DNA of 64,000 nt. It comes from Chitinophaga deserti. GTDB lineage: Bacteria > Bacteroidota > Bacteroidia > Chitinophagales > Chitinophagaceae. Below, piece after piece: positions 39,892-60,388 of this stretch. The notes under the pieces are model-generated. The model was not told the DNA's origin, did no database searches, and saw nothing but the letters and a program-made list of their open reading frames with translations. The DNA is taken from assembly GCF_003149455.1 (NCBI RefSeq), contig NZ_QFFK01000005.1, positions 1-64,000 of the forward strand, read 5' to 3'. The first letter of the stretch is position 1, and each line of letters starts with the position of its first letter. The translations under genes and the position numbers were made by a program.

Positions 39892-40272
39892 ATGCCTACA
39901 ATACAACAATTAGTAAGAAAAGGAAGAGAAATTATCCGGGCCAAGTCCAAATCCAGAGCGTTGGATGCTTGTCCGCAGCGTCGTGGCGTATGCACCCGTG
40001 TATACACTACCACCCCTAAGAAACCGAACTCCGCGTTGCGTAAGGTTGCGAAAGTAAAGCTTACAAACAAGGTGGAAGTGATCGCTTACATTCCGGGTGA
40101 AGGCCATAACCTGCAAGAGCACTCAATCGTACTGATCCGTGGTGGCAGGGTGAAAGACCTTCCGGGTGTTCGTTACCACATCGTTCGCGGTTCCCTCGAT
40201 ACTGCTGGTGTGAAAGACAGGAAGCAAAGCCGTTCCAAGTATGGTACTAAGAAGGAAAAGGCTAAAAAATAA
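39892..40272 (+). CDS. rpsL: 30S ribosomal protein S12
   Basis: A 126-residue S12, full length. [13 protein letters not shown] opens the chain; [16 protein letters not shown] and [16 protein letters not shown] contain the Lys residues whose changes give streptomycin resistance elsewhere, and both are wild type here. It works in the decoding centre. It is the first gene of the str cluster and is followed by rpsG after 31 bases. Confidence 0.99.
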
Positions 40273-40303
40273 TTTGTAATAAATAGTTGAAATCTTTCAA
40301 TAA

Positions 40304-40771
40304 ATGAGAAAGCAAGCTGCGAAAAAATTACCCCTCGCTCCCGATCCAAGGTTCCAGGATAAACTGGTTACCCGATTCGTGAATAACATCATGGAGCAAG
40401 GAAAGAAAAGCATTGCCTACCGTATTTTCTACGATGCTGTAGACCGTGTTAGCCAGATCACTAACGAAAACGGCTACGAAATTTGGAAAAAAGCCCTGAC
40501 CAACGTTACGCCTGCCGTAGAAGTACGCAGCCGCCGTATAGGTGGTGCTACCTTCCAGATCCCTGCTGAAGTTCGTGCTGACCGTAAGGTGTCTTTGAGC
40601 ATCAAATGGCTGGTTCGCTACGCTGGTGAAAGAAATGGTAAGAGCATGGCTGAGAAACTGGCGAACGAAATCGTTGCTGCCAGCAAAGGTGAAGGTGCTG
40701 CTTTCAAAAAGAAAGAAGATACCCACCGTATGGCTGAAGCCAACAAGGCTTTCTCCCACTTCAAGGTATAA
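40304..40771 (+). CDS. rpsG: 30S ribosomal protein S7
   Basis: A 155-residue S7 of usual length that binds the 3' domain of 16S rRNA and can repress str operons. Seen are MRKQAAKKLPLAPDPRFQD, LVTRFVNNIMEQGKKSIAY, GGATFQIPAEVRADRK and EDTHRMAEANKAFSHFKV in order. It should be followed by fusA in a standard cluster; here a terminator and the duplicated surface-protein operons follow. Confidence 0.99.
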   Translation: MRKQAAKKLPLAPDPRFQDKLVTRFVNNIMEQGKKSIAYRIFYDAVDRVSQITNENGYEIWKKALTNVTPAVEVRSRRIGGATFQIPAEVRADRKVSLSIKWLVRYAGERNGKSMAEKLANEIVAASKGEGAAFKKKEDTHRMAEANKAFSHFKV

Positions 40772-41331: not shown

Positions 41332-44300
41332 TTACTTCACGTTCACCAGTACTTTGATCAGGCCTTTGCCGGAAGGCAGCTCCTGGAGCGCTTTTCCAAG
41401 TACCTGGCCGGTTTTTACCTTGTCCGGATCCGCTTTCATCGCATATCCTGGTGTGCTGGAAGTTACGAGAAGGTCGCCACGGGCAATTGCACCACCTTCG
41501 TCACAAACCTTTGTAGGTATAACACCTACCACACCCATGGGTACCTGCCCTTCGATGTCGTCCGTCCCTTCCTGTTCTGTCAGCAGTACACCCGGTTTAG
41601 TTGCGTAAACACCTGCCACAAGAGTGGAATAAGCCTGCGAAGATTTCTCCATCATACGGTCTGTATGTGTGGAAATCACCAATACATCGCCCGGTTCATA
41701 ATCAGTCAGCGTACCGTGAACATCAAATGCTTCCGCAATGTCAGCACCACTGTTCTGTGTACCTCCGTTAAAGAAACCACGGCCTGCTTTGTTTACCCTT
41801 GCCACGTTTGCCCCTACGTTCCTGTACACTGCAATGTTGCCGGAAGCCCCACGGTGATCTACCAATAATGCAGTACCCGTACCGTCGTTGCGGATATCCA
41901 CAGTAGTCTGGCCGTTGGCAGTATTGAAGTTGGAGAAACGACCTGCACGGCCGGTACCGAAGTTGGGCGTCCAGCCATAGATCGCAGTACCGGAACCGTC
42001 TGCATTGGCTTCTACCGCATTACCGTCATTGGCATTGGCAACAATACCTTCCCCTGTACCATTCGTAAGCGCTATCAAAGCGGGGCGGGGGTTGGTTGCA
42101 TTTGAGACATAGAACAAACCTCCGGTACCGCCGGTTCCGTCTGCACGGCCATAAACGCCTGCAGTACCGAAATTGGCGAAGATGGAGTTCACCACGCCCA
42201 CTACCCCTGCAGAGGTACCTTGCGCATTATCCACTATGAATTCTCCGGCATTACCGTTACCTACTGTCTTAGCAGTCACTACCGGGTTGTCATTATCTTC
42301 ATTGAAATGTTCGAACCGTCCTGCGCGGCCGGTAGCAAAAGTGGGTACCCATGCATACATGGCAGTACCTGCACCGTCAATGTTCGTTTCCACACCATTG
42401 CCATCTTTACCGGCATTGGCAGTGATGGCATTACCATTACCATCAGTCAGTGCAATAAGTGAAGCACCGTTTCCGGAAGGGTTGGAGGCATAGAAAAGCC
42501 CTGCGCGGCCACCTGTACCTGAAGAGATACCGAATACACCCGCAGCACCGAAGTTGCCGAAGATGGTATTTACTTCTGCTCTTACGGCAGCGCCTACACT
42601 GTTCGTATTATCCAGCACGAATGAGGAAGCATTCCCCAAAGTATTATCAGGGATATTACCATTACTGTTGGATTGAACTTCAAGGATATTGGCTTCGGTA
42701 TTGGTCTGGTTGAAGTTTTCGAACCTGCCTGCACGGCCGGTACTACCGCCCACACCTACACGGCCATATACTGCGATAGCTGAATTGGAAACGTCTGTAC
42801 CAATAAATCCATGCACACCATATCCACCACCATCATTGCGGCCTACTACCGCACCGGCGATGTTGCTGGTAGTACGGCCCACTACAGCTTCTCCGCCGCC
42901 GGTATTGTCTCCCACCAGACCTGCACTGGTTTGACTACTTGTCATACCCTGTACCCCAAACCCGTTGATGGTGTTAGCAAATACACCTTTGCCATTCCCG
43001 GTAGTAGATACACTGATCACATTACCGTTACCTACTGTAGATGTAGAGAGTACAACATTATTGTTTGCATTGTTGGCAATTGAAATATTTGCAGCAATAC
43101 CGTTATTACTGGTTGCGTTAAGGCCTGTGCCTGTATTGCTGTTAGCATACACACCAAAGCCATTGGCGGAAGCATTGCCGTACACACCAAGGCCGTTAGG
43201 AGTGGTGCCATATACACCCCATCCGGAGCCATTCTGTGAACCCCAAACACCAATCCCTAATCCACCGGTACCATTGTTGATCCCGCGCACGGCAGAAGAG
43301 AAGCCGCCCGGTGCTGTTGAGGTTATAATGCCGCGTATGCTTGCAATGTTAGATGTAGTGGTATTATTAGCACCTTCGAGAGAGGCACCATCTCCATTAT
43401 TGGTAATTGAAAAAAGCGTGGCAGCATTGTTTTCCACCGCAGCGTAGGGAAGGGTAAGCCCTCCGCCTCCATTGTTGTCTGCCGAAGGCGCCCATTCAGT
43501 TCCTGAATATTTCAATACCTGGCCAGCAACCGGTGCTGTCAGGGAAACAGGAATAGTCTGGATTTTAGCTACTGAAGGGTTAGGGTATGTTCCCGAGAGA
43601 TCCCCGCCTGCTGTTACTCCATTGATGTCACCAGCTGGTCCGGCCGGCCCTTGCGGGCCTACAGGGCCTGAAGGACCAATCGGGCCAATAGGTCCGGCGG
43701 GACCCATAACACCTACAGGACCTGCAGGCCCAACCGGGCCTTGAGGTCCTACAGCACCAGTTGCACCATCAGCACCTGCGGCACCTGCTGCACCTACCGC
43801 ACCAGCGGGGCCTACAGGACCAATAGGGCCAGCAGGGCCTTGCGGCCCGGCAGGACCGGCTGCTCCATCGGCTCCCGTTGCACCTACAGCACCTGCAGGA
43901 CCTACAGGACCAATGGGTCCTTGCGGGCCAACTGGTCCGGCTGCTCCATCGGCACCTTTTGCGCCTACAGCACCTGCAGGACCTACAGGGCCAATAGGTC
44001 CTTGCGGACCAGCGGGACCGGTTGCACCATCAGCTCCTGCAGCACCTGTTGCTCCAACAGGACCCATTGCACCGGTAGCGCCAACAGGTCCCTGGGGGCC
44101 AACTGCACCTGTAGCACCAACAGGCCCTGCGGGTCCCTGTGGTCCTACAGCGCCATCTGCACCTGCAGGTCCAACTGGGCCTATGGGACCGGCTGCACCA
44201 ACAGGCCCTGCGGGTCCCTGTGGTCCAACTGCACCATTAGCACCAGCAGGTCCAACCGGTCCAATGGGGCCAATAGGTCCGGCAGCACCTGCAGGTCCGG

Positions 44301-44955
44301 CAGGGCCAATTGGGCCGGTAGCTCCGTCAGCACCGGTTGCGCCCATAGGTCCGGTTGCTCCTACCGGCCCGGCAGGGCCAGTAGCTCCGATTGCGCCGGC
44401 AGGGCCGATTGGACCAATTGGTCCGATAGGACCTACAGGACCGGCAGGCCCAGTAGAGCCGGCAGGTCCTGTGGCTCCGGTTGGTCCTACGGGACCAATG
44501 GCACCGGTAGCACCTTGTGGTCCTGCAGGTCCGGCAGGACCTTGCGGGCCGGGATTACCGTTAGCCGCGAACAGCGCAAACGGAACACTCAACAGTTGTT
44601 GTGTTCCGAGGGTTACAAACCCTCCTCCTGTATTTACTTCTACCTGAAGAAACTGGTTGGCATTGGCCCAGGGAACTCCTGCGAAAGTGCCGGAAACCGC
44701 AGTCCCGCGGCCTACCTGCAGTATAAAGAGGCCAAGTGCGTTGGTAGCTGTGTTATGCGTTTCCTGATATTGCACAGCGCCATTGGGGCCGCCGCCACGA
44801 ACAGAAAAGCGGACGCTCAGTGCCTGATTGGCTAAAACGGTACCGTTGCTGTTACGCGCCACAGCCTGGTAGTTGATACCCGACAATGCGTTCTGGGCAT
44901 AGCTCCCGGAAGCGATTGCAAGGCAGAGTATAAATAAGTATAAAGTTTTTTTCAT
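41332..44955 (-). CDS. Exported collagen-like fibre protein, copy 1
   Basis: A 1,207-residue surface protein. Signal peptide: residues 1 to about 20 (ending GSYAQ). An N-terminal beta domain (21-132; [19 protein letters not shown]) is followed by a collagen-like Gly-x-y stretch at about 134-442, almost without charge. Then comes [11 protein letters not shown], known from phage-tail-like fibre stalks, and a long series of loosely repeated [24 protein letters not shown] units (about 500-1060). The C-terminal domain ([11 protein letters not shown] ... [10 protein letters not shown] ... [12 protein letters not shown]) resembles trimeric fibre ends. No T9SS C-terminal domain is seen. It is the last gene of the operon, five bases after the 151-residue gene. 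Confidence 0.85.
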
Positions 44956-44960
44956 GGTGA

Positions 44961-45416
44961 TCAGTTTTTAGGGGTTTTCTCTTTTGGCTTGTCATAATGC
45001 AGGGAAGGCTCTTTGCCTTGTGCTGCCGGGTCAATAATAGCGGGCGCTGCTTTTGCTGATTCGCCGGCTTTAGCTTTTTGGGCAGACTCAGCGGCAGACT
45101 GGGTGCTGGGAAGCTGTCCTGCAGCAGCAGGCGCCTGTGCTTTAGCCTTACGGGCTCCCGAATTGAAACTGCGGGGAACGCCTCCTCCGGTGCCGTTTCC
45201 ACCGGGGAATATATGTTGCCGTAGTGCATCCTTACTGGTGATGAAGGCTTCTTTCGGTTTAGGGGCAGTGATAGTTAACTGTTTCGGTATACCATCCTTG
45301 AAGAGGCTGGCCTTGACGCTGCCTCCGGTTTCAGAAGCTTTGGCGGATGCCTGCGAATGTGCATCGGAGAATGCGGCCATCAGCAAGAGTGGGATGAAAA
45401 TGAAAAACTTGTACAT
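44961..45416 (-). CDS. Exported Ala/Lys-rich protein, copy 1
   Basis: A 151-residue protein with a signal peptide ([20 protein letters not shown]; cleavage near SQA). The mature chain is rich in Ala, Lys, Pro and Gln and looks disordered. It shares with its copy-2 counterpart [27 protein letters not shown] and a PKEKTPKN-like end, while the rest differs strongly. It lies five bases upstream of the fibre gene, so it may be a fibre partner, linker or assembly factor. No known family is recognised. Confidence 0.65.
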
Positions 45417-45455
45417 GGAATTGGTGCTTTATGTTAATAAGGAAAGGTTACGTTA

Positions 45456-46613
45456 TTATTTATCCCTGAAGGGAGTGTACATGAGCGTGAAGTTGAGACT
45501 CTTCCTTTGGCGTAAGCTTCCGCCTACTGGGAGGAGGTAAGCAAAATCGAGCTGGAAGCCCTGTACCCTTACACCGAAGCCTGCCGAGAACTGCTGACGG
45601 TTCCCCTTTGCAGGATCTTCATAGAAGTATCCGGTTCGCACGAAGAAGTTGTTTTGGTAGGAATATTCTATTCCAGCAGCGAGAGAAAACTCGCTGAACT
45701 CTTCGCGGAAGCCGTCCGGCGCATCGGTGAAGGAAGTGAAGATGGATTCCACCACACTCCTGTCGGGGTCCTTACCGCGGTCAATCTCGCTGGTGGGGTT
45801 ACCATCGGGATCGAGTTTGTATACCGGAGGCGTTGGCACCAGCAGTTTGTTGACATCTGCGGCGAGGGTAAACTTGTGATCTTCCGTACGAACAAAAGTG
45901 TACCCGCCACCGATACGGAGGTTCATGGGGAGGAAGGTTTTCTTATTACTGTCGTCGGTGTAAGATAGTTTGGTACCGATGTTGGTGAAGCTGATGCCCC
46001 AGGCGTACCGGTTATTCCCTTCGATATGATTGGCATATTCTTGTGAGTAGAGGCTGATATCCCCTGCCACAGCGGAGGCTGGCTTCTGCAGCTGTCCGTT
46101 GTAAGTGCCGTTGCCCAGTTCGCTTCTGATGTACCTGGCAGTGACAGCAAGGGCGAATGCGGAACCCAGCTTTCTGGCGTATGCGAGATCTACGGCATAT
46201 TCCCTGGGCCTGTACTGCTGAAGTACCATGCCATTATCATCGCGGAAGGTGACGTCACCATAATTGAAATATTTGACGGCAGCGCCAAGGCTCTGCTGTT
46301 CGCCCCAGGTTTTAAAGCCTGAGATGTAAGCCATATGCGTTTTTTTATCGAGCAGGTCCCACATCCAGGGGGAGTATGAAACGCTGGCGCCCCATTCCCC
46401 TGCGAAGGGAAGTTTGGCAGCGTTGGCGAACATGGCATTAGCGTCCGGCTCAAGTCCTGTAACGGCTCCACCGGTAGCGCTGCTCCTGGCATCTGGGTTA
46501 ATAAGCAGGAATGAGCCGCCGATATTATGGGGCTGACGAGCGCTTTTCTGGGCCATCAACGGATGTACCGCCAGCAGTCCCGCAAGCACGAGGATCCATT
46601 TGAGTTGCTTCAT
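45456..46613 (-). CDS. porV: PorV (LptO) family T9SS outer-membrane protein, copy 1
   Basis: A 385-residue outer-membrane barrel of PorV length. PorV receives T9SS cargo from the translocon and carries it to the attachment complex. Seen are the signal peptide (MKQLKWILVLAGLLAVHPLMAQ, in parts), NIGGSFLLINPDARSSATGG, PDANAMFANAAKLPFA, WMWDLLDKKTHMAYISGF, YFNYGDVTFRDDNG, PREYAVDLAYARKLG and a terminal strand LNFTLMYTPFRDK. The ATG at 46613 is chosen because the signal peptide begins there; it lies 16 bases after the small CTD gene. It differs from copy 2 at seven positions. Confidence 0.85.
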   Translation of the reverse strand: MKQLKWILVLAGLLAVHPLMAQKSARQPHNIGGSFLLINPDARSSATGGAVTGLEPDANAMFANAAKLPFAGEWGASVSYSPWMWDLLDKKTHMAYISGFKTWGEQQSLGAAVKYFNYGDVTFRDDNGMVLQQYRPREYAVDLAYARKLGSAFALAVTARYIRSELGNGTYNGQLQKPASAVAGDISLYSQEYANHIEGNNRYAWGISFTNIGTKLSYTDDSNKKTFLPMNLRIGGGYTFVRTEDHKFTLAADVNKLLVPTPPVYKLDPDGNPTSEIDRGKDPDRSVVESIFTSFTDAPDGFREEFSEFSLAAGIEYSYQNNFFVRTGYFYEDPAKGNRQQFSAGFGVRVQGFQLDFAYLLPVGGSLRQRKSLNFTLMYTPFRDK

Positions 46614-46629
46614 GGTAGACCAGTTTAGG

Positions 46630-47136
46630 CTATTGAACAATAAGTTTTTCAGTGAACACGAACGCGTTAACCTTCAGGATGACGGTATAGATGCCAGCAG
46701 CCAGTTTATCTACGGAGGTGGGAATGACGACTTTGCCGGGGGCATAGTTACGTACGTCCTGGTAGATGACCTGTCCTGCGGTGTTCATCAGCAGGAAGGT
46801 GACGGTGGCGTTAGTCAGGAGACTGAACTGGATCTTGAAGGTTGTGAGCGCCGGGTTTGGAAATAGGGAGAAGTCCAGAATGGGGTTACCTCCCGGAGCA
46901 AGTGGGGGGAGGATCTCCGGTTGCTGGAATCCCTGGGTGAGGAGGATGGGCCCTGCGGAGAGGGGCGAGATGGCAGCTTCCCCGATGGTATAATCGAAGT
47001 GGATGCCCCCGATGATGCCTGAGCCTCCGGAGGATGCGGTTACCTGCCTGACCAGCACAAGCTGGGAGCGGGCAGGCATCCATGAGATGGCCAGGAACAT
47101 GGCCAGTAACAGGTGCTTTGTAAAATTTGATTTCAT
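46630..47136 (-). CDS. Small exported protein with T9SS C-terminal domain, copy 1
   Basis: A 168-residue protein. Signal peptide: residues 1-24 (ending MPARSQ). Residues 25-80 form a short beta segment with YTIGEAAISPLSAG and LTQGFQQPE, a stretch often found just before T9SS domains. Residues about 88-168 are a type A T9SS C-terminal domain (FSLFPNPALTTFKIQF, GQVIYQDVRNYAPGK, LAAGIYTVILK). There is no room for a catalytic domain, so the protein is nearly all sorting signal. From residue 6 on it is identical to copy 2. It is the first gene of the operon; the start at 47136 is chosen from the signal peptide. Confidence 0.8.
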   Translation of the reverse strand: MKSNFTKHLLLAMFLAISWMPARSQLVLVRQVTASSGGSGIIGGIHFDYTIGEAAISPLSAGPILLTQGFQQPEILPPLAPGGNPILDFSLFPNPALTTFKIQFSLLTNATVTFLLMNTAGQVIYQDVRNYAPGKVVIPTSVDKLAAGIYTVILKVNAFVFTEKLIVQ

Positions 47137-47634
47137 AGTTAAACACAGTAGGTGAAAAGTGAGAAATGATGGATATGCAATACAGGAATCATCTGCCGTA
47201 TATATCCAAAATGAATACATCGGCAAATTGATAACGGGTTATGCGCTTATTGCAAAGACGGTGTAATAGGTTCTTAAAAAATGTACTGGTTTACCCAATA
47301 GGATATACAGTGTGTTCCCGAAACATTATTTCTTATAGGTATGGCGACAAATGGCCCAGCGTATGCTGTTTGCGCGTCTTTCAGTACGATGGTTAAACTG
47401 GGAAATAGATCTTGGGGTAGGGCTTCACGTTAGAGTGAAAGCACTAATTGTATTGCAAGATATAAAAATGTAAACAAATAACAATAGGTGACTTTTTTCA
47501 TCTGCCTGAGAGCCAGTGGAAAGAGAAGAAAAGGCTGCCCCTGAAGAGGCAGCCATACACAAAAACCATACATATACCCTTGCTCTCGTCAAAAATGTAT
47601 GTTAGTACGGTTATATCAGTTAAGTTGAAAGCAA
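47137..47634. other. Spacer between the two surface operons
   Basis: About 500 AT-rich bases. It holds the terminator of copy 2 (47533-47554) and must hold the promoter of copy 1. On the minus strand CCGTCTTTG near 47257-47265 resembles a -7 element but lacks the TA. No gene was seen. Confidence 0.5.
47525..47554 (-). terminator. Terminator of surface operon copy 2
   Basis: Read on the minus strand, GGCTGCC and GGCAGCC pair around a short loop (TCTTCAGG), followed by TTTTCTTCTC. It lies about 80 bases after the stop of the second fibre gene. Confidence 0.75.
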
Positions 47635-50600
47635 TTATTTAACGTTTACAAGTACCTTGATTTTACCGGTACCGGAAGGCTGTTCCTGCAAGGCTTTCCC
47701 GAGGATCTGGCCATGTTGTACCTTTTTCATATCTGCTTTCATGGCGTAGCCTGGCTTGCTGGCGGTTACGAGAATATCGCCGCGTTTGATTGGGCCGCCT
47801 TCATCGCAAACTTTAGTGGGGATTACGCCGACTACCCCCATTGGGATCTGGTCGGTAATGTCTTCCACACCTTCCGTTTCTGTTAGCAGTACACCGGGTT
47901 TGGTGGCATATACACCAGCAACGAGTGAAGAATATGCTTCGGAGGATTTCTCCATTTTACGATCGCTGGTAGTAGAGATCACCATTACATCTCCCGGCTC
48001 ATAATTACTCATGGCGCCCTCCACGTCAAATGCCTCTGCAAGGTCGGCACCGCTATTCTGGGTACCACCGTTGAAGAACCCACGGCCGGCGGAGTTGATC
48101 CGCGCTACATTCACGGTACCAGGGTTGCCGGATTTAAAGAGTGCGATAGAACCATTACTGTGTTGCTCAACTGTGAGTACGGGATTAGTATTACCTGTGT
48201 TGAAATTCACAAATCTGGAAGCACGCCCGTTACCGAAGTTAGGTATCCAGCCAAAGATTGCACTGCCCGTACCGTCTGCGGTGGCTTCCACTCCGTCGCC
48301 GCCATTGGAGGCATTGGCCGTAATACCATTGCCGTTACCATCTGCGATGGCAATCAGCGCAGGACCATTACCGGCAGGGTTACTGGCATGGAATAAACCT
48401 GCAAAACCACCGGTACCGGAAGAAATACCATAAATACCTGCTGTTCCAAAGTTGGCGAACTGGGAATTTACTTCACCCCTTACGGCAGGAGATGTACCTG
48501 TCACTCTATCTACCATGAAATTACCTGCGATACCATTACCTACAGTTTTGGCAGTAACTACATCGCTGGTATTGTTTTCATTATAATGTTGGAACCTTGC
48601 CGCACGGCCGGTAGCAAAGGTGGGTACCCATGCATAGATTGCATTGCCTGCACCATCTATATTGGTTTCCACACCATTTCCGTCCTTACTTGCATTTGCT
48701 GTGATCGCATTACCATTACCATCAGTGATCGCAACTAATGAAGCACCATTGCCAGCAGGATTCGAAGCATGGAACAGGCCTGCGAAACCACCCGTTCCGG
48801 ATGAAATGCCAAAGATGCCAGCAGCACCGAAGTTGCCGAAAATTGTTTTTACTTCCGCTCTAACGGCTGCGGCCACACTGTTGGTATTATCAACAAGGAA
48901 AGATGATGCGTTACCCTGTGTGTTGTCAGGGATATTACCGTTACCATTGGTTTCCACTTCCAGCGCGTTGCCTGTGGTATTGGTCTGGTTGAAGTTTTCA
49001 AATCTGCCTGCACGGCCGGTACTATTATTCAGACCTATCTGCCCGAGTACACCTATCGCATTACCTGAGTTATTGGTAGCTACGAATCCGCGCACACCAT
49101 AACCACCGCCATCATTACGGCCTACAACTGCACCGGCTATATCACTTGTGGTGCGGCCTACTACTGCTTCGCCCGCGCCATTGTTGTCACCGATAACACC
49201 CGCGCTTGTTTGGGCACTGGTAATGCCATGAATGGCAAACCCTGCACCGGTAGAGGAAAATACACCCGCACCGTTACCTGTAGTCGTTACGTTAACTACT
49301 GTTCCGTTACCCACAGAATTGGCAACGATCACATTGTTATTGTTCGCATTGTTGAAGATGCTGAAAGATGCAGGTATACCGTTGTTGCTGGTAGCCTGCA
49401 GGCCAGTGCCTGTATTACTGTTAGCATATACGCCAAATCCATTAGCGGAAGAGTTACCGTATACACCCAATCCATTCGGTGTTACACCGTACACGCCCCA
49501 GCCGGATCCTGCCTGTGATCCCCAAACGCCAACACCCAATCCGCCTGTACCGCTATTAATACCGCGAACTCCGGAAGAGAAACCTCCCGGGCTGGCACTT
49601 GATACAATACCGCGCACCGCTGCAATGCTGCTGGTGGCGGTGTTATTAACACCTTCCAGTGATGTGCCGTCGCCATTGTTAGTGATGGAAAATAACGTGG
49701 CAGGATTGTTCTCTACAGCTGCATAGGGGAGTGTAAGCCCTCCGCCCCCGGCATTATCCGCAGCGGGTGACCATTCAGTTCCTGAAAATTTCAATACCTG
49801 ACCTGCTACCGGAGCAGTAATGGCTACCGGAATTGTTTGAATACGGGCAACCGAAGGGTTAGGGTAATTACCACTGAGGTCTCCTCCGGCAGGGCCGTTA
49901 GGAGGGAGCGTAGTGGGGATTACTCCGGGTGCTATTTTGGCCAGCGTTACAACGCCATTGGCAATTAATGGATTGGGGTAGGTTCCGGAGAGATCGCCAC
50001 CCGCTGCAACACCATTGATGTCGCCCGCAGGTCCCGCTGGTCCTACAGGACCGGCAGGCCCGATGGGTCCAATAGGTCCGGCTGGGCCCATAGCTCCCAC
50101 TGCACCAGCAGGTCCAACAGGTCCGGCTGGCCCAACAGGTCCTACAGCACCGTTAGCACCGGCAGGCCCAACAGGACCGATAGGTCCTATGGGTCCGGCT
50201 GCTCCAACAGGTCCGGCAGGGCCAACGGGGCCTACAGCGCCATTCGCGCCGGCAGGACCAACGGGTCCTATGGGGCCGGCTGCTCCAACGGGGCCTGCAG
50301 GGCCAACGGGGCCTACAGCGCCGGCAGGACCAACGGGTCCTATGGGTCCGGCTGCTCCTACGGGTCCGGCAGGGCCAACAGGTCCTGTTGCACCATCAGC
50401 ACCGGCAGGTCCAACCGGTCCGATGGGACCTGCTGCTCCTACGGGGCCGGCGGGACCAATAGGTCCAACAGCACCGGCAGGTCCTACAGGTCCAACGGGA
50501 CCGGCAGCTCCAACAGGTCCGGCAGGACCAGCGGGGCCTTGCGGGCCGGGAGTGCCATTAGCAGAGAATTGTGCGAAAGGCACACTCATCAGCTGGCTGG

Positions 50601-50952
50601 TACCGAGGTTAACGAATCCGCCACCGGTGTTCACTTCCACCTGGAGGAACTGATTGGCGTTACCCCAGGGTACTGCAGCGAAGCTTCCGGTTACCGGAGT
50701 GCCACGCCCCAGCTGGAGGGTGAAGAGACCGATATTGTTAGTAGCGGTGTTATGTGTTTCCTGATATTCTACAGCGCCGTTTGGCCCGCCGCCACGAATG
50801 GAGAAGCGGACGCTCACTGCCTGATTGGCCAGTACTGTTCCATTGCTGTTACGCGCCACCGCCTGGTAATTGATACCGGAAAGCCCGCTTTGCGCAAAGC
50901 TTCCAAGGGCGGCCGTCAGGAAAAAGAAGAGGAGGTATAGTATTTTTTTCAT
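47635..50952 (-). CDS. Exported collagen-like fibre protein, copy 2
   Basis: A 1,105-residue paralogue of the 41332 gene with the same architecture: signal peptide (ending GSFAQ), N-terminal beta domain ([19 protein letters not shown]), a shorter Gly-x-y stretch (about residues 132-308), two GGDLSGxYPNP units instead of one, the [14 protein letters not shown] repeat region, and the same C-terminal domain ([11 protein letters not shown] ... [11 protein letters not shown] ... [12 protein letters not shown]). The collagen part is about 130 residues shorter than in copy 1. It follows the 150-residue gene by five bases. Confidence 0.85.
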
Positions 50953-50957
50953 GGTGC

Positions 50958-51410
50958 TCAGTTTTTAGGAGTTGGGGCCTTGGCTTTATTTTCAGTAGGT
51001 TCAGTTCCCTGCGCATTGATATCGAAGGGTTTGGCTGCAGCTTTTCGTGCATCTGCATCTTTGTTTTTCTGTGCGGCATCCGCAGCAGATACGGTGGATG
51101 GGAGCTGGTTACCCTGCGCAGCCGAAGTATTTGCCTTGCGTGCGCCGGAGGTAGCGGCCTTGGTCGTAATGCCATTGCTTCCGGGGAAAATATGCTGTTT
51201 CACCGCCTGAGGGGAAGCCAGTGTGGCTTCTTTAGCCTTAGGTGCTGCTGCCTGCTGTGCCCTGATTTTCGCGATAGCCTGGTCGTAATCACTGAACATA
51301 CGGTGACGGATGCTCTGACCTTCGCTGGCCTTCCTGTCTGCCTGCTGCGCCCGCACTTGTGTAAATGCAGCCGTTAACAGGAGGATCAATGTTATAATTG
51401 TTTTGTTCAT
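50958..51410 (-). CDS. Exported Ala/Lys-rich protein, copy 2
   Basis: A 150-residue protein with a signal peptide ([21 protein letters not shown]). Only short blocks match copy 1: [32 protein letters not shown] and the ending APTPKN. A coiled-coil-like segment [19 protein letters not shown] is not found in copy 1. Placement and operon spacing are the same. The strong divergence, next to a nearly invariant PorV gene, marks it as the most variable part of the module besides the collagen length. Confidence 0.65.
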
Positions 51411-51448
51411 GACGAGTGCTTTATCTGTAATAAGGAAAGGTTACGTTA

Positions 51449-52606
51449 TTATTTATCTCTGAAGGGCGTGTACATGAGCGTAAAGTTCAGGCTCTTCCTT
51501 TGGCGTAAGCTTCCGCCGGTGGGGAGGAGGTAAGCAAAGTCGAGCTGGAACCCCTGTACCCTTACACCGAAGCCAGCCGAGAACTGCTGACGGTTCCCCT
51601 TTGCAGGGTCTTCATAGAAGTATCCGGTACGCACGAAGAAGTTGTTCTGGTAGGAATATTCTATTCCCGCCGCGAGGGAAAACTCGCTGAACTCTTCGCG
51701 GAAGCCATCCGGCGCATCGGTGAAGGAAGTGAAGATGGATTCCACCACACTCCTGTCAGGGTCTTTGCCGCGGTCAATCTCGCTGGTGGGGTTACCATCG
51801 GGGTCGAGTTTGTAGACCGGTGGTGTTGGCACCAGTAGTTTGTTGACATCTGCAGCGAGGGTGAACTTGTGATCTTCTGTACGCACAAACGTGTATCCGC
51901 CACCGATACGGAGGTTCATGGGGAGGAACGTTTTCTTATTACTGTCGTCGGTATAAGACAGTTTGGTACCGATGTTGGTGAAGCTGATGCCCCAGGCGTA
52001 GCGGTTATTCCCTTCGATGTGATTGGCATACCCTTGTGAGTAGAGGCTGATATCGCCTGCCACAGCGGAGGCAGGCTTCTGCAGCTGTCCGTTGTAGGTG
52101 CCGTTGCCCAGTTCACTTCTGATGTACCTGGCGGTAACAGCAAGGGCGAATGCAGACCCCAGCTTTCTGGCGTATGCGAGATCTACGGCATATTCCCTGG
52201 GCCTGTACTGCTGAAGTACCATGCCATTATCATCGCGGAAAGTGACATCACCATAATTGAAATATTTGACGGCAACGCCAATGCTTTGCTGTTCGCCCCA
52301 GGTTTTAAAGCCTGAGATGTAAGCCATATGTGTTTTTTTATCGAGCAGGTCCCACATCCAGGGGGAGTATGAAACGCTGGCGCCCCAATCTCCGGCGAAG
52401 GGAAGTTTGGCAGCGTTGGCGAACATGGCATTGGCGTCCGGCTCGAGTCCTGTAACGGCTCCACCGGTAGCGCTGCTTCTGGCATCAGGGTTGATGAGCA
52501 GGAATGAGCCGCCGATATTATGGGGCTGACGAGCGCTTTTCTGGGCCATCAACGGACGTACCGCCAGCAGTCCCGTAAGCACGAGGATCCATTTGAGTTG
52601 CTTCAT
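51449..52606 (-). CDS. porV: PorV (LptO) family T9SS outer-membrane protein, copy 2
   Basis: A 385-residue PorV homologue, about 98 percent identical in protein sequence to the 45456-46613 copy. Differences by eye include Ala/Thr and His/Arg in the signal peptide, Glu/Asp before WGASVSYSP, Leu-Gly-Ala versus Ile-Gly-Val, Glu/Gly in SLYSQxYAN and Val/Thr in LLPxGGS. All barrel motifs are intact, so both copies look functional. A genome normally has one main PorV; two more beside a fibre gene suggest a dedicated shuttle. Confidence 0.85.
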   Translation of the reverse strand: MKQLKWILVLTGLLAVRPLMAQKSARQPHNIGGSFLLINPDARSSATGGAVTGLEPDANAMFANAAKLPFAGDWGASVSYSPWMWDLLDKKTHMAYISGFKTWGEQQSIGVAVKYFNYGDVTFRDDNGMVLQQYRPREYAVDLAYARKLGSAFALAVTARYIRSELGNGTYNGQLQKPASAVAGDISLYSQGYANHIEGNNRYAWGISFTNIGTKLSYTDDSNKKTFLPMNLRIGGGYTFVRTEDHKFTLAADVNKLLVPTPPVYKLDPDGNPTSEIDRGKDPDRSVVESIFTSFTDAPDGFREEFSEFSLAAGIEYSYQNNFFVRTGYFYEDPAKGNRQQFSAGFGVRVQGFQLDFAYLLPTGGSLRQRKSLNFTLMYTPFRDK

Positions 52607-52622
52607 GGTAGACCAGTTTAGG

Positions 52623-53129
52623 CTATTGAACAATAAGTTTTTCAGTGAACACGAACGCGTTAACCTTCAGGATGACGGTATAGATGCCAGCAGCGAGTTT
52701 ATCTACAGAGGTTGGGATGACGACTTTGCCTGGGGCATAGTTGCGAACATCCTGGTAAATGACCTGTCCTGCGGTGTTCATCAGCAGGAAGGTGACGGTG
52801 GCGTTAGTCAGGAGACTGAACTGGATCTTGAAGGTTGTGAGCGCCGGGTTTGGAAAAAGGGAGAAGTCCAGAATGGGGTTACCTCCCGGAGCAAGTGGGG
52901 GGAGGATCTCCGGTTGCTGGAATCCCTGGGTGAGGAGGATAGGCCCTGCGGAAAGGGGCGAGATGGCGGCTTCCCCGATGGTATAATCGAAGTGGATGCC
53001 ACCGATGATGCCTGAGCCTCCGGAGGATGCGGTTACCTGCCTGACCAGCACGAGCTGGGAGCGGGCAGGCATCCATGAGATGGCCAGGAACATGGCCAGT
53101 AACAGGTGCTTAGTAGAAAAATGCTTCAT
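52623..53129 (-). CDS. Small exported protein with T9SS C-terminal domain, copy 2
   Basis: A 168-residue protein, identical to the 46630-47136 product except for residues 3-5 (HFS versus SNF). Signal peptide, LTQGFQQPE segment and type A C-terminal domain are all present. As first gene of operon copy 2 it is divergent from fusA, whose promoter begins about 350 bases away. Confidence 0.8.
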   Translation of the reverse strand: MKHFSTKHLLLAMFLAISWMPARSQLVLVRQVTASSGGSGIIGGIHFDYTIGEAAISPLSAGPILLTQGFQQPEILPPLAPGGNPILDFSLFPNPALTTFKIQFSLLTNATVTFLLMNTAGQVIYQDVRNYAPGKVVIPTSVDKLAAGIYTVILKVNAFVFTEKLIVQ

Positions 53130-53476: not shown

Positions 53477-53507
53477 TTTATTTATTGATAGAAATTGATT
53501 ACCTTTG
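53477..53507 (+). promoter_or_regulatory. Promoter of fusA
   Basis: TACCTTTG at 53500-53507 with TTTA at 53477-53480, 19 bases apart, a weaker -33 than for rpsL and rpsJ. The following CCCCCCAAATTG matches the start of the rpsL and rpsJ leaders. It gives fusA its own transcript, separate from rpsL-rpsG. Confidence 0.75.
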
Positions 53508-53544
53508 CCCCCCAAATTGCATTACTTATAGTCATTTTACTTTT

Positions 53545-55689
53545 ATGGCAGACTTAAGATTTCAAAGAAACTTTGGTATTGCGGCGCACATCGATGCCGG
53601 TAAGACCACTACCACTGAGCGTATCCTGTATTACACAGGCAAGACTCACAAAATCGGAGAGGTTCACGAAGGAGCCGCTACCATGGACTGGATGGCTCAG
53701 GAGCAGGAGAGAGGTATTACCATCACATCTGCTGCTACTACCTGTTTCTGGAACTTCCCTACCAACCAGGGTGAGAGTTTGCCGGATACCAAACAGTTTA
53801 AATTTAACATCATCGATACCCCGGGCCACGTGGACTTCACCGTGGAAGTAGAGCGCTCACTGCGCGTACTCGACGGTCTGGTTGCCCTGTTCTGCGCCGT
53901 ATCCGGTGTTGAGCCCCAATCTGAAACAGTTTGGCGTCAGGCGAACAAGTACCGTGTTCCCCGTATCGGTTTCGTTAATAAAATGGACCGTTCCGGTGCT
54001 GACTTCCTCAACGTGGTTAAACAGGTAAAGGAAATGCTGGGTGCAAACCCCGTTCCCCTGACCTTGCCCATCGGCGCTGAAGATCACTTCAAAGGCGTAG
54101 TGGACCTGATCACTATGAAAGGTATCATCTGGGACGAAGCTGGTAAAGGTGCAACCTACCAGGAAATCGAAATCCCCGCTGATATGAAGGAAGAAGCGGA
54201 AGAGTGGAGAGCTAAACTCGTAGAAGCAGTTGCTGAATACGACGATACCCTCATGGAGAAATTCTTCGAAGATCCCAATTCCATCTCTGAAACTGAAATC
54301 CATGAAGCAATCCGCAAAGCCACTATCGACATGGCTATCATCCCGATGATGTGCGGTTCTTCTTTCAAAAACAAAGGCGTTCAGAAAATGCTGGACGGCG
54401 TTTGCCGCTACCTGCCTTCTCCGATGGATGTTGAATCCGTAACTGGTACCAACCCCGACACCGGTGAAGAAATCACACGCGCTCCTTCAGCTAAAGAACC
54501 TTTTGCTGCTCTCGCGTTCAAGATCGCTACCGATCCGTTCGTAGGCCGCCTCGCATTCTTCCGGGTTTATTCCGGCCGTCTGGACGGTGGTTCTTACGTA
54601 CTGAACACCCGTACCGGCAAAAACGAGCGTATCAGCCGTATCATGCAGATGCACGCCAACAAGCAGAACCCTATCGATTTCATCGAAGCCGGTGATATCG
54701 GAGCTGCTGTAGGTTTTAAGGATATCAAAACTGGAGACACCCTGTGCGCGGAAAACAGCCCGATCGTACTGGAATCCATGTCCTTCCCTGAACCCGTTAT
54801 CCACATCGCTATCGAGCCTAAAACTCAGGTAGATGTTGATAAAATGGGTATGGCTATCGCCAAGCTGGTAGAAGAAGATCCTACCCTCAAAGCGAAAACC
54901 GATGAAGAAACCGGCCAAACCGTATTGAGCGGTATGGGTGAGCTTCACCTCGAGATCATCGTTGACCGTATGCGCCGCGAATTTAAAGTGGAAGTTAACC
55001 AGGGCGCTCCCCAGGTTGCTTACAAAGAAGCATTCACCCAGAAAGTTGAACACCGCGAAGTGTTCAAGAAACAAACCGGTGGCCGTGGTAAATTCGCAGA
55101 CATCCAGATCGAGATCGGACCTGCTGATGCAGAATGGCTGAAAGAAAACGAAGGCAAATCCTTCCAGTTCGTGAATGACATCTTCGGTGGTTCTATCCCC
55201 AAAGAGTTCATCCCCGCAATTCAGAAAGGTTTCGAGCAATCCATGAACAATGGTGTTCTCGCAAACTTCCCCCTGACTTCCCTGAAGGTTCGCCTGTTCG
55301 ACGGTTCGTTCCACCAGGTAGACTCCGACGCAATGTCCTTCGAGCTTTGCGCCAAATCGGCCTTCCGTGAAGCTGGCCGTAAAGCGAAACCAGTTCTGCT
55401 CGAGCCTATCATGAAAGTGGAAGTTACCACACCCGACCAGTACATGGGCGACGTGACCGGTGACCTTAACCGCCGCCGTGGTATGCTGGAAGGTATGGAA
55501 TCCCGCAATGGTGCACAGGTAATCAAGGCTAAAGTGCCCCTGAGCGAAATGTTCGGTTATGTAACCCAACTCCGCTCCCTGTCTTCCGGCCGCGCAACTT
55601 CCATCATGGAGTTCTCTCACTATAACCCAGCTCCTAACAACGTTGCCGAAGAGGTAGTTGCTAAGATCAAGGGTAAAGTGAATGCCTAA
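53545..55689 (+). CDS. fusA: Elongation factor G
   Basis: A 714-residue EF-G, which drives ribosome translocation with GTP. The start [28 protein letters not shown] (in parts) at 53545 is the usual one; the frame extends to 53485 but through the promoter. G motifs are [17 protein letters not shown] and NKMD. Later domains show [25 protein letters not shown], and [14 protein letters not shown] in domain V. It is full length. In most relatives it follows rpsG directly; here 12.8 kb separate them. Confidence 0.98.
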
Positions 55690-55723
55690 TCAGCCACAAG
55701 TTGATAGATAGAAATAAGAAAAA

Positions 55724-55752
55724 GGGCCCCGGCGTAAGCCGGGGCTTTTTTC
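55724..55752 (+). terminator. Terminator of fusA
   Basis: GCCCCGGC, loop GTAA, GCCGGGGC and a run of six T, 34 bases after the stop. It confirms that fusA is transcribed alone. Confidence 0.93.
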
Positions 55753-56520
55753 ATACCCCCGATCCTGTCCAATTGGAAGGTTTCACTTTCATATTCACAG
55801 ATAATCTGCTGGTAAATCCCGCTTTTTCTGAATTCTGCTGCTGGCGCAACCCTCAATCTTTCTGGAGGTAGCCTCCGGCCTTTGGCATTTATCGGCCCTG
55901 AGGACCTGAAAGTGACATGGACACGTGCTAATCGCGCTGTAATCGCGCTGTAATCGCGCTGTAATCGCGCTGCAATCGCGTTGTAATCGCGCTGCAATCG
56001 CGCTGCAATCGCGCTGTAATAGTACTGCAATAGCGCTGCAATTACGCTGTAATCGTACTCTAATAGCGCTGTAATCTTACTCTAATCGCACTGTAATCTT
56101 ACTCTAATCGCACTGTAATCATACTGTAACCATACGCTAATCGGCCAGTCATTGCACTGGGTCTAACTTGCAATAAGTTTATACTCATTGTTGGAAATCC
56201 TGGTAGAAGTGGACAGTATTCCAATACTTTCCCGTTCAGGTTTACAGGGATAGATTCAATTGGTTGGGGCTTTATCGAATTGAAAATACTTTAGAGTGTA
56301 GGTGAAATAAATGACAGGGTTAAATTAATCTGTTGATTTTTAATATGGTAAGTGCAGCAGGTTTTGTGTTTTTACAGGAATGAAACTAAGCTAAACTACT
56401 TAATCCGGCAGTTTGGCCAACAGCCCACATTGTAACATCAGTACCCTGATCTCCGTCTTATCTCCAGACAGCTGTTCGCTCTATGCTGTATTTGTTGTAA
56501 TCACCTCAAACCATCGCTTT
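55753..56520. other. Spacer with an 11-base repeat array
   Basis: About 770 bases without a supported gene. The array at 55929-56148 is annotated separately. An open minus-strand frame through the array encodes an 11-residue repeat but is a by-product of the 11-base period. Bases 56149-56520 show no clear feature. Confidence 0.6.
55929..56148. repeat. Array of about 20 eleven-base repeats
   Basis: Units follow TAATCGCGCTG exactly head to tail from 55929. The first eight differ at most at one or two positions (C for T at position 1; T for C at position 9). From 56017 on they decay (TAATAGTACTG, TAATCTTACTC, TAATCGCACTG, TAACCATACGC), ending near 56148. The third to twelfth units and beyond keep TAAT or CAAT plus a C-T-G/C ending. 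It starts about 175 bases after the fusA terminator. Confidence 0.93.
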
Positions 56521-57111
56521 ATGCGCCACATCCCCATGCTGGCCGCCTTCGTTGCGGCCATGACCCTCTTTTATGCCTGTAAAAAACGGAATACAGGCGA
56601 TCCTGTTCCCAAAAGCACACTGACCTATCGCAGTCTTGCCGACGTTCAGGTGAAAAACCTCCAATCCTTCCATCTTGACCTTGACCTGGACGGCACCCAC
56701 AACGTTTACCTCGCGCTGGCCGTTACCGGAGGAGCCGAAGGCATGCGTGGCAAGTTCTTTGCTGCCGGTATCAACAGTACTAAGGTGTTGGTGAAAAAGG
56801 ATACCACTATTTGCCTGCAGCAAAATGAAGTCATGAAAGGTGTTGCACCCCACCCGCGCGACTGGAAAGGCATGGAATCTTACCTCGTGGAAGCCTTCAT
56901 CCCCGCCGCCACGCCTAATGACACAGTTTGGACGGGCGACTGGCTGGGCGTTAACCGCAAATACATTGGTGTGCAGTTTATGAAGGATGAAACCCCTTAC
57001 CTCGGCTGGATCTGTGTGTCAATGGATCGTACCAACCTGGCGCTGATCCTGCATGGATGCGCCTGGCGTAAGCTGAATGAGGGCGAATTGCCCGCTGGTA
57101 AGATGCCCTGA
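56521..57111 (+). CDS. Lipoprotein of unknown function
   Basis: A 196-residue protein with a lipoprotein signal (MRHIPMLAAFVAAMTLFYAC, Cys at residue 20) followed by KKRNTGDPVP. The mature part shows VKNLQSFHLDLDLDGTHNVYLAL, with GHTHN-like HNVY, and PYLGWICVSMD near the end, a beta-rich domain. No family is recognised. The start at 56521 is chosen from the lipobox. It is convergent with the sugar dehydrogenase gene and the stops are directly adjacent. Confidence 0.65.
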   Translation: MRHIPMLAAFVAAMTLFYACKKRNTGDPVPKSTLTYRSLADVQVKNLQSFHLDLDLDGTHNVYLALAVTGGAEGMRGKFFAAGINSTKVLVKKDTTICLQQNEVMKGVAPHPRDWKGMESYLVEAFIPAATPNDTVWTGDWLGVNRKYIGVQFMKDETPYLGWICVSMDRTNLALILHGCAWRKLNEGELPAGKMP

Positions 57112-58224
57112 TTAATTCGGGTCGCTGATCTCAATGATGCGTCCCGGGTTGGCGTCTGTACAGATATAAACCCTGCCGTAGGGCGACACGCACAGGTCGC
57201 GCAGGCGGCCATAACGGTTGGCGAACCAATTCGCCGTTGAAGCAACGCTTTGCCCGTTGGACGAAAGTTTCAGCTGGTGAAGCGTTGCGTTTTTAAGGCT
57301 TAGGACGAGGAGGGAGTTCTTCCAGCCGGGAATACGGTCGTGGTTGTAGTAATCCAGGCCGCACAAGGCGAAAGTGCTGCCTCCGGTAGACCAGATGGGC
57401 GGTTTGACGTTGTTGGCATTGCAGAAGGTTATTTCCCCGCCATTGCAGGGCCCCTGTACATTGGGCCAGCCAAAGTTCCTGTTTTTCTCAATGATGTTCA
57501 CTTCGTCTTCCGTATTGGCGCCATGTTCGGAAGCGTATAAGGTATTACCGATGAAAACCAATCCCTGTGGGTTTCGGTGCCCCAGGCTCCAGAGATGGCT
57601 CCCGGCAACGGGGTTGTCTGCCGGGATGGAGCCGTCTGCCCGGAGCCGCAGTACTTTACCGGACAGGGATGCAGGGTCCTGCGCAGCATCAGCATTGGAG
57701 GCGTCGCCGGTGGTGATGTAGAGCATACCATCAGGTCCAAACAGCAGCCGGGAGCCATTGTGGATTCCGGAAGCGGGGATATTGTCCAGCAGTATTTGAG
57801 GGCTGGAAAGCGTGTTGTTCCGGTATTCGTAGCGGACAACCTTTTCGCGGTATGGCGATCCGTAATTGTAGACGATGTACACAAACGGAGATGTGTTAAA
57901 GGATGGGTGGAGTGCCATGCCGAGGAGGCCGCCTTCGCCGTTGGGTACGATATCGGGTAACGTTAGTAGGGGAGAGATTGCTCCGGTTTTAGGGTTGACA
58001 CGGCTGATACGGCCGTTGCGCTCCGTCATCCAGATGAAATTGTCGGGGCCCCATAGGATTTCCCAGGGGTTTGAAATGCCGGAAGCTACCACGGTCCGGA
58101 TCTTATCAGTAGGCCAGTCAGGATCTTCGGGTGCGGGGTTGGGGTTAGGATTAGGGTTGCTTTTTTTGCCACATCCTATGGAAATGGCAAGGAGCAGCAG
58201 GAGGGCTGAAAGGACTGTTTTCAT
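57112..58224 (-). CDS. PQQ-dependent sugar dehydrogenase family lipoprotein
   Basis: A 370-residue soluble-GDH-type six-bladed propeller anchored by lipidation (lipobox ISIGC near residue 18). Marks are ISNPWEILWGPDNFIWMTERNGRI in parts, GEGGLLGMALHPSF (with the His), HNGSRLLFGPDGMLYITTGD, SLGHRNPQGL and NFGWPNVQG. It oxidises a sugar with PQQ in the periplasm or at the surface; the substrate is unknown. After the Cys there is a short NPNPNPNP linker encoded by a GGGTTA/GGGGTT microsatellite. Its length is below that of full GDH-B but the blades are present. Confidence 0.88.
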   Translation of the reverse strand: MKTVLSALLLLLAISIGCGKKSNPNPNPNPAPEDPDWPTDKIRTVVASGISNPWEILWGPDNFIWMTERNGRISRVNPKTGAISPLLTLPDIVPNGEGGLLGMALHPSFNTSPFVYIVYNYGSPYREKVVRYEYRNNTLSSPQILLDNIPASGIHNGSRLLFGPDGMLYITTGDASNADAAQDPASLSGKVLRLRADGSIPADNPVAGSHLWSLGHRNPQGLVFIGNTLYASEHGANTEDEVNIIEKNRNFGWPNVQGPCNGGEITFCNANNVKPPIWSTGGSTFALCGLDYYNHDRIPGWKNSLLVLSLKNATLHQLKLSSNGQSVASTANWFANRYGRLRDLCVSPYGRVYICTDANPGRIIEISDPN

Positions 58225-58417
58225 AGACCTGATTTTTTATAAGACCGGTTAAGAGGCTGCAAATTGCCTGCCAGTCAAAAAAAATCATCACACATTTCAA
58301 CCTTTTCACAATCGGGATGTTAAGTTTATGTTTATTGTATTCATAATCAAGCATATCCTATCTATCCCCACCTGGAAATTTTAAGGCAAGCAAGCAATTT
58401 CATCAAAACCTCATATT

Positions 58418-59020
58418 ATGAAGAAAATCGGTTACCTGGCCCTTTTCCTGGCGGGCATATTGTGCACGTCCCAAGCCCAAGCGCAGACCCAGAAAGGAAA
58501 CATACTGGTGGGAGCGAACCTGGCCAACATCGGCGGCACTTTCCAGGATGGTGGCAGTACATTCAGCCTGAATCTTACACCCAAAGCGGGATGGTTTATC
58601 AGAGACGATATTGCGATTGGTCCGGAGGTGAACCTCGGCCTGCTAACAGGCAATGGTTCCACCCGTTTCAACTACGGTATTGGTGCATTTGGCCGTTATT
58701 ACATCAAAGACAAGCGGATTGAGCTCCTGAACAAAACCCGGTGGTTCCTGGAAGCAAATGCCGGATTCAATGGTATTAATACCAAAGCCGGGGATCAGGA
58801 AAGCACCAATACCAACGGTCTTGGTTTGGGCTTCGGGCCTGGTCTGGCTTATTTCATAACGCCGAATATCGCACTGGAGGCATTGCTGAAATATAACCTT
58901 ACAGTAGGTTTCGGCAGTTCAGTAACGGCGCATAATGTGGGACTGAACCTGGGATTCCAGATCTATCTCCCCAGCGCCAAAGCGCGTCAGACCATCAAGG
59001 AAACGAAGATGGCCCGTTAA
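58418..59020 (+). CDS. Outer-membrane beta-barrel protein
   Basis: A 200-residue protein with a signal peptide (MKKIGYLALFLAGILCTSQA). The mature part is an eight-strand-type barrel: GNILVGANLANIGGTF, LTPKAGWFIRDDIAIGPEVN, RFNYGIGAFGRYYI, GLGFGPGLAYFITPNIALEA and VGLNLGFQIYLPS. It ends in a basic tail. It belongs with the common porin-like outer-membrane proteins of Bacteroidota; no ligand can be named. It stands alone with a terminator behind it. Confidence 0.8.
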   Translation: MKKIGYLALFLAGILCTSQAQAQTQKGNILVGANLANIGGTFQDGGSTFSLNLTPKAGWFIRDDIAIGPEVNLGLLTGNGSTRFNYGIGAFGRYYIKDKRIELLNKTRWFLEANAGFNGINTKAGDQESTNTNGLGLGFGPGLAYFITPNIALEALLKYNLTVGFGSSVTAHNVGLNLGFQIYLPSAKARQTIKETKMAR

Positions 59021-59059
59021 CGGCATACACTAAAACAGAAATAATTCAACCCCATCGCG

Positions 59060-59099
59060 AGGGGCCGGCAATGGTGAAAGCTATTGCGGGCCCTTTTTG
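59060..59099. terminator. Terminator between the barrel and TonB genes
   Basis: GGGGCCGGCAAT pairs with ATTGCGGGCCC around GGTGAAAGCT, followed by TTTTT on the plus strand. It lies between two convergent genes. Confidence 0.8.
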
Positions 59100-59114
59100 C
59101 TTTGTGGGTAAGGG

Positions 59115-59861: not shown

Positions 59862-60008
59862 GGTAAAGTGGAATTAAGCGTTATAATGGCCTGGGTATAA
59901 GATGGTTAAATTGGTGTTGAAGTGCTCTGGGAATAAGAGGGCGGCCATTAAAACTATGGAAAGGTGGTGAAAAAGTCAATAATGTGGGGAAAATATCCTC
60001 AAAATTTA

Positions 60009-60039
60009 TTTGTGGGGATAAAAAACTTACTTACCTTTG
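60009..60039 (+). promoter_or_regulatory. Promoter of the S10 operon (rpsJ)
   Basis: TTTG at 60009-60012, 19 bases, TACCTTTG at 60032-60039, with the same downstream CCCTCCCAAATTG as rpsL. It gives the S10 cluster its own promoter, 43 bases ahead of the rpsJ ATG. Confidence 0.82.
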
Positions 60040-60082
60040 CCCTCCCAAATTGAGGGGTAATAATAGAAGAAGTTCATTGCAT

Positions 60083-60388
60083 ATGTCTCAGAGAATTAGA
60101 ATCAAGCTGAAGTCCTACGATCACAACCTGGTAGACAAATCTGCCGAGAAGATCGTTAAAACCGTGCGAAACACGGGCGCCGTGGTAACAGGTCCTATTC
60201 CTTTACCTACAGAGAAGAAAATCTTTACGGTGCTGCGTTCTCCGCACGTGAACAAGAAAGCGCGTGAGCAATTCCAACTGTGCACCCACAAGCGCCTGTT
60301 GGATATTTACACATCTTCTTCCAGAACTGTAGATGCGCTGAGCAAGCTGGATCTGCCTTCTGGTGTTGAAGTGGAAATCAAAGCGTAA
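60083..60388 (+). CDS. rpsJ: 30S ribosomal protein S10
   Basis: A 101-residue S10 of usual length, also known as Nus[19 protein letters not shown] is the conserved start, so the ATG at 60083 is chosen over the frame opening at 59984. [29 protein letters not shown] (in parts) and the final SGVEVEIKA are typical. It opens the S10 operon. Confidence 0.98.

Follow-up and report, generated by a model that had tools for sequence, protein, structure and literature searches.

The soil bacterium Chitinophaga deserti carries two adjacent units of four genes that encode a small protein with a T9SS type A CTD (mini-protein), a PorV paralogue, an exported Ala/Lys-rich protein (AK) and a collagen-like fibre that does not itself match CTD models. 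The module is real, conserved and undescribed as a system in the open-access literature that we searched. As judged from sequence comparison, the four-gene set is a genus-level elaboration, and the phylum-wide core is a CTD-bearing mini-protein encoded beside a fibre with a base domain like that of the Bdellovibrio MAT proteins. The occurrence of a CTD-less fibre beside a CTD-bearing mini-protein, together with a dedicated PorV whose mini-protein mostly lacks the residue pair reported for PorU cleavage, is most readily accounted for if the fibre is exported or anchored in trans and the socket is a lasting one. We postulate, tentatively and with somewhat less than even confidence, that Bacteroidota export and anchor MAT-like trimeric fibres through the T9SS using a signal that is supplied in trans; the CTD mini-protein would grip the base of the fibre and, in Chitinophaga, a dedicated PorV would keep the uncleaved mini-protein as a lasting outer-membrane socket.

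Two units between rpsG and fusA

In the 64,000-nucleotide stretch of DNA that was analysed (the window), the units lie between rpsG and fusA, and all eight open reading frames (ORFs) are on the minus strand in the order mini-protein, PorV paralogue, AK and fibre (Table 1). The original prediction of two such units at this site is borne out by the ORFs, and curated models recognise the mini-protein, PorV and the fibre. The start of porV is better set at the ATG (52606 in copy 1 and 46613 in copy 2), 16 nt past the stop of the mini-protein gene. A terminator-like stem (47554-47533), of a kind no commoner in this region than in shuffles, stands between the copies, which therefore probably form two transcription units. 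Rfam gave no match anywhere in the window. By inspection, the ribosomal cluster is interrupted a second time after fusA: non-ribosomal-looking genes lie at 55690-60558, and further ribosomal protein genes follow from 60559.

Table 1 Features of the two units and of their flanks in the window
Feature	Position	Strand	Basis
Copy 1 mini-protein, 168 aa	52623-53129	-	TIGR04183 37.3 bits, Por_Secre_tail 30.6 bits
Copy 1 PorV paralogue, 385 aa from ATG	51449-52606	-	NF033710 372 bits, Pfam PorV
Copy 1 AK, exported, disordered, Ala/Lys-rich, 150 aa	50958-51410	-	Signal peptide seen by inspection; orthologue at the same position in relatives
Copy 1 collagen-like fibre, 1105 aa	47635-50952	-	Collagen; Bdello_MAT_N 40 bits (below cut-off); fold search with the cap
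Terminator-like stem between units	47533-47554	-	Consensus scan only
Copy 2 mini-protein, 168 aa	46630-47136	-	Por_Secre_tail; protein 98% identical to copy 1
Copy 2 PorV paralogue, 385 aa from ATG	45456-46613	-	Pfam PorV; protein 98% identical to copy 1
Copy 2 AK, 151 aa	44961-45416	-	Protein 45% identical to copy 1
Copy 2 collagen-like fibre, 1207 aa	41332-44955	-	Collagen, six stretches; protein 74.5% identical to copy 1
rpsL (39892-40272) and rpsG (40304-40771), left flank of insertion site	39892-40771	+	ORFs
fusA, right flank of insertion site	53485-55689	+	ORF

The units had been described as a tandem-duplicated operon. They are indeed adjacent, but they did not arise by one simple duplication. 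Nucleotide identity between the copies is 96% for the mini-protein gene and 94.5% for porV, with mostly synonymous change, and drops sharply at the porV stop; beyond this point, protein identity is 45% for AK and 74.5% for the fibre. In the part that follows the collagen stretch, the fibre of copy 1 shares 90-92% identity with its copy-1 counterparts in a C. pinensis isolate and in genome G025 (for G025, over a shorter fragment), and the two C. deserti fibres are 74.5% identical to each other. For the mini-protein and PorV, two copies from the same genome show 98-100% identity, and those of different groups (C. pinensis, G025 and G006) show 84-92%. As fibres match the corresponding copy across species and mini-proteins and PorVs match within the genome, the duplication predates the split of these species, with homogenisation since then. 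A simple tandem duplication is ruled out by this split divergence; the homogenisation within each genome is most simply attributed to gene conversion. Co-duplication was also put forward as an argument for joint function, which we set aside because the two halves of the unit differ in history.

Other genomes show further arrangements. Three units lie between fusA and rpsG in G025, the fibre genes of which are split in two, and Chitinophaga sp. E66 has several PorV and fibre pieces with broken reading frames; in both genomes, the broken frames of module genes (L087, L039 and L040) may reflect either sequencing error or real decay. A rearranged double module, with two PorV genes and two mini-protein genes in a row between two different fibres, is found beside fusA in G012 (L043).

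All four genes occur in the same order in 30 of 35 sampled congeners, beside fusA in 29 and elsewhere in one (G031). Because it recurs in this way, the arrangement is, on the evidence of gene order, far beyond chance, and the four genes very probably work together. The claim that they form one linked system is thus upheld: the order is kept in all 30 congeners that bear the module, most of the sampled relatives have the genes linked rather than dispersed, and two other genera have the same four kinds of gene in the order mini-protein, fibre, AK and PorV. Two further congeners outside the 35 have the module beside fusA and rpsG, with AK not called in one of them (G167), and among the multi-copy genomes one or two units have no called AK. 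Within the genus, the mini-protein gene and porV range from a slight overlap to 53 nt apart (by called starts), and the distance from porV to the fibre gene is 378-565 nt. The module is absent from five congeners (G008, G009, G013, G014 and G035); in these and in G031, the gap between rpsG and fusA is ~240-790 nt. In G014 (L228:10302-10664), all that is left of the module is a frame-shifted part of the fibre cap, the neighbours of which resemble those of the complete G031 module (L070). From the absences, this remnant and the different site of the module in G031, it seems that the module is gained and lost as a whole.

Predicted parts of the module

Signal-peptide-like starts were recognised by inspection in all four kinds of protein. 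The mini-protein comprises a signal peptide, a small GFQQP-type domain and a T9SS type A CTD. Por_Secre_tail matches both copies (30.6 bits, cut-off 27), and the type A model TIGR04183 matches residues 91-168 of the 168 residues of copy 1 (37.3 bits, cut-off 23); the type B model TIGR04131 gave no match on the mini-protein of the window. The PorV equivalog model NF033710 matches the copy 1 PorV with 372 bits (cut-off 250), Pfam PorV matches the barrels of both copies and Collagen matches both fibres. Neither AK protein matched curated models; across the genus, AK is an exported disordered chain with little overall conservation and short recurring motifs. There are 26 type A CTD sites in the whole C. 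deserti genome, and chance adjacency of such a site to a fibre is therefore rare.

The genome has two further PorV genes, one on contig C1 and one on contig C17. The C1 gene adjoins an 1122-aa ORF that is presumed to encode PorU. In a quick tree, the module PorVs form a clade of their own genus, well apart from the C1 PorV, and are not orthologous to it. On contig C17 (L036:2673-9251), an 1810-aa MBG/fn3 protein with a Por_Secre_tail match is followed 18 nt downstream by the PorV paralogue, and this pairing of a type A CTD with a PorV fits the idea of dedicated PorVs. It could be argued that the PorV of the module is a spare, or serves to raise the dosage of the general PorV, that it is retained close to highly expressed ribosomal genes and that it has no particular tie to the mini-protein or the fibre, given that it passes the equivalog cut-off and that a site beside fusA may be strongly expressed. 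We regard this as improbable in view of its own genus clade, so far from the PorV beside the presumed porU, of the module of G031, all of which lies at another site with its genes still linked, and of two other genera in which PorV is likewise linked to genes of these kinds.

PorU reportedly cuts at T, E, D or N before G, A or S (PMC10202324). Scored over the 23 residues just ahead of the CTD, such a pair occurs in 2 of 32 distinct module mini-protein linkers and in neither C. deserti copy, as against 10 of the 14 other type A proteins of the C. deserti genome that have a scorable linker (6 of 20 linkers were not scorable; Fisher p 1.3e-5). Outside the genus, the pair is found in 18 of 28 mini-proteins from the family and 7 of 13 from the phylum. 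The idea that module mini-proteins mostly escape PorU-type cleavage is suggestive only, because these proteins are relatives of one another and the cleavage rule was established in a different species.

The fibre consists of a MAT-like base domain, collagen repeats, glycine-rich repeats and a phage-like C-terminal cap. The fibres of the window match the MAT N-terminal model NF053851 (Bdello_MAT_N) with 38.7-47.7 bits, below its cut-off of 60, and all 34 base domains in the genus alignment match this Bdellovibrio model, likewise below the cut-off (best E 2e-13). In relatives, the same base domain is joined to S74, Lcl_C, OmpA or BclB-like tips or to the cap, which is the constant base with exchangeable tips that characterises MAT proteins. 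A fold model of the base (pLDDT 79) is a beta-sandwich, for which PDB and BFVD gave no match at E<=0.001.

Confidence in the model of the cap is low (pLDDT 64), and the best PDB matches of this model are phage chains: a Pam3 capsid-unit chain (E 2.3e-4), followed by phi29 prohead chains that we take for the head fibre, phi29 gp12 and then lambda gpD/SHP-type proteins. Compared with the C-terminal domain of gp12, this pLDDT 64 model gave E 7e-3 (3suc) and E 1.6e-2 (3gqh), with a TM of ~0.3. By this predicted fold, the cap may resemble trimeric phage proteins; a sequence search of solved structures with the cap and the base gave no credible match. By tblastn, a relative of the cap ends a structural protein of Pseudomonas jumbo phages (~26% identity, E 5e-4; hhalign E 8e-8). 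This protein was found in 11 such phages, and in Pseudomonas phage vB_Pa-PAC2 (L158:3017-4453) the cap relative forms the end of an annotated baseplate wedge subunit and tail pin. The maturation site of gp12 is W-S-D-F-A-E, with Ser 691 modelled as the last mature residue. The cap has G-A-D-x-A-E in 33 of 33 aligned rows, with Ala where gp12 has Ser, and self-cleavage is not predicted from its sequence. Assignment of the cap to Peptidase_G2 or to the gp12 domain was rejected on the basis of this Ala, the lack of a Pfam match and a direct comparison with gp12, the score of which (22.23) was equalled by the best of 40 shuffles.

A cap that resembles phage structural proteins, together with PHROG tail-fibre matches on the fibre (mostly to its collagen repeats), would also be expected if the block were a domesticated phage tail-fibre remnant with no role in secretion. 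This is highly improbable: signal peptides, a T9SS CTD and PorV are present, four intact, exported genes have been kept over 30 species, the changes between the copies of the mini-protein gene and porV are mostly synonymous, and the neighbouring large ORFs include no phage-like genes by inspection.

Mini-proteins and fibres across the phylum

The four genes were originally regarded as the basic unit. This view had to be given up, as a dedicated PorV is confined to some genera and the pair of mini-protein and fibre is phylum-wide; with PorV copies at E<=1e-90 in 1 of 103 family genera, the four-gene set is ruled out as a family-wide unit. Of 102 family genera, 46 have the fibre base domain, as do 31 of the 140 genera in a phylum sample. 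Most of the loci inspected, 40 in the family sample and 20 in other families, have a small gene directly beside the fibre gene, usually upstream and within ~150 nt, that encodes a signal peptide, a small domain ending in a GxxQ-type motif and a CTD. The 38 non-index family loci hold 43 fibres, 31 of which have a small same-strand gene directly upstream; six of the others gave one downstream, so that 37 mini-proteins were scanned in all. CTD models matched 33 of these 37 (31 the type A model and 2 the type B model) and all 16 small neighbours from other families (14 type A and 2 type B), or 49 of 53 outside the genus, rates that are not unbiased because the neighbours were chosen as mini-protein candidates before scanning (16 of them by means of a mini-protein profile). 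Pfam CTD models matched none of the fibre tails (last 150 residues; 0 of 39 in the family and 0 of 24 in the phylum, 0 of 63 outside the genus), and in NCBIfam no CTD model was among the best 25 of 47 families for the family fibre tails.

A different reading of these pairs is that the mini-protein is an ordinary T9SS surface protein that meets and binds the fibre only at the surface, which the fibre would reach across the outer membrane by some unknown route, with PorV serving the mini-protein only. This reading is just as compatible with the gene linkage, and the literature searched gave no example of T9SS cargo exported in trans. However, such separate routes call for an unknown path for a protein of more than 1,000 residues and leave the absence of a CTD from all scanned fibre tails unexplained; we consider them rather unlikely, if still a serious contender.

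Outside the genus, most mini-protein genes lack a dedicated porV in their neighbourhood, so that such a PorV is not generally needed, which counts against the scheme proposed below. In the quick tree, the PorVs of the two other genera that have all four kinds of gene group together, outside the Chitinophaga module clade. This suggests a separate recruitment of PorV, which we do not claim, as a single origin was not rejected by a one-clade test (p-AU 0.446). Outside the genus, 12 capped fibres have a small gene both upstream and downstream, nearly all with a signal-peptide-like start, and one further capped fibre, in another family, has both small neighbours as well. Base-domain fibres can be numerous, with six matches in G521 (L247), several of them in a row, and 13 in G142.

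A proposed route to the surface and known systems

For the Chitinophaga module, we give about an even chance to a scheme in which the mini-protein supplies the T9SS signal in trans to the CTD-less fibre, a dedicated PorV holds the mini-protein as a lasting outer-membrane socket and AK acts as an escort. All four proteins would enter the periplasm via Sec, where the fibre would trimerise through its phage-like C-terminal cap and its collagen stretch. The mini-protein would bind the N-terminal base domain of the fibre and contribute its type A CTD in trans, and the SprA translocon may export or anchor the resulting pair, placing the fibre at the surface. The cognate PorV paralogue would take the CTD of the mini-protein and, because most module mini-proteins lack the PorU cleavage pair, would retain it as the socket for the fibre, much as PorQ keeps the CTD of PorZ. 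Against a lasting socket, two mini-proteins of other genera that have a PorV do carry the cleavage pair, at the edge of the CTD. AK may serve fibres that bear a phage-like cap as a disordered escort or as a chaperone, and gene conversion may keep the mini-protein and PorV alike in both units while the fibres diversify.

If this scheme is correct, T9SS cargo need not bear its own signal, and more T9SS-dependent surface proteins could be recognised in annotation. One PorV is reported to recognise all type A CTDs, and cognate PorP/SprF barrels those of type B (PMC12618676); a type A substrate that has a PorV to itself would go against this rule. The surface element to which the N-terminal domain of MAT proteins binds is described as still to be identified (PMC10769870), and the pair of mini-protein and PorV is a concrete candidate kind of partner for the MAT-like base in Bacteroidota.

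Our search of the open-access literature found no account of this gene set, of Chitinophaga fibres or of T9SS export in trans, which agrees with the original statement that no described system has this gene set. We file the module as a variant of T9SS substrate–barrel modules combined with MAT-like fibres. The fibre cap has a predicted fold (pLDDT 64) that may be similar to that of the phi29 gp12 C-terminal chaperone domain and of lambda gpD/SHP-type trimers, and has in common with gp12 the motif D-x-A-E-x-[FY] at the maturation site; it differs from gp12 in the Ala at the position of Ser 691 and in matching no Pfam family. Operons of Flavobacterium johnsoniae that encode a type B adhesin and a PorP/SprF shuttle, with or without PorE, likewise place a CTD substrate beside its own PorV-superfamily barrel, and this barrel is thought to fix the final location of the adhesin (PMC12618676). 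By contrast, the CTD of the Chitinophaga module is of type A, its barrel is a PorV rather than a PorP/SprF protein and the adhesin itself has no CTD. In the attachment complex, PorV holds the retained CTD of PorU and PorQ holds that of PorZ; it has also been suggested that CTDs are protected by cognate barrels (PMC10202324). The module would likewise keep a CTD bound on a PorV-family barrel, but this CTD would belong to a small fibre adaptor and not to a processing enzyme. The Bdellovibrio MAT proteins (PMC10769870) have in common with the Bacteroidota fibres a similar N-terminal base (by profile), the constant base with exchangeable tips and members tipped with S74, whereas the Bacteroidota fibres score below the family cut-off, many have a collagen shaft and a T9SS mini-protein is encoded alongside.
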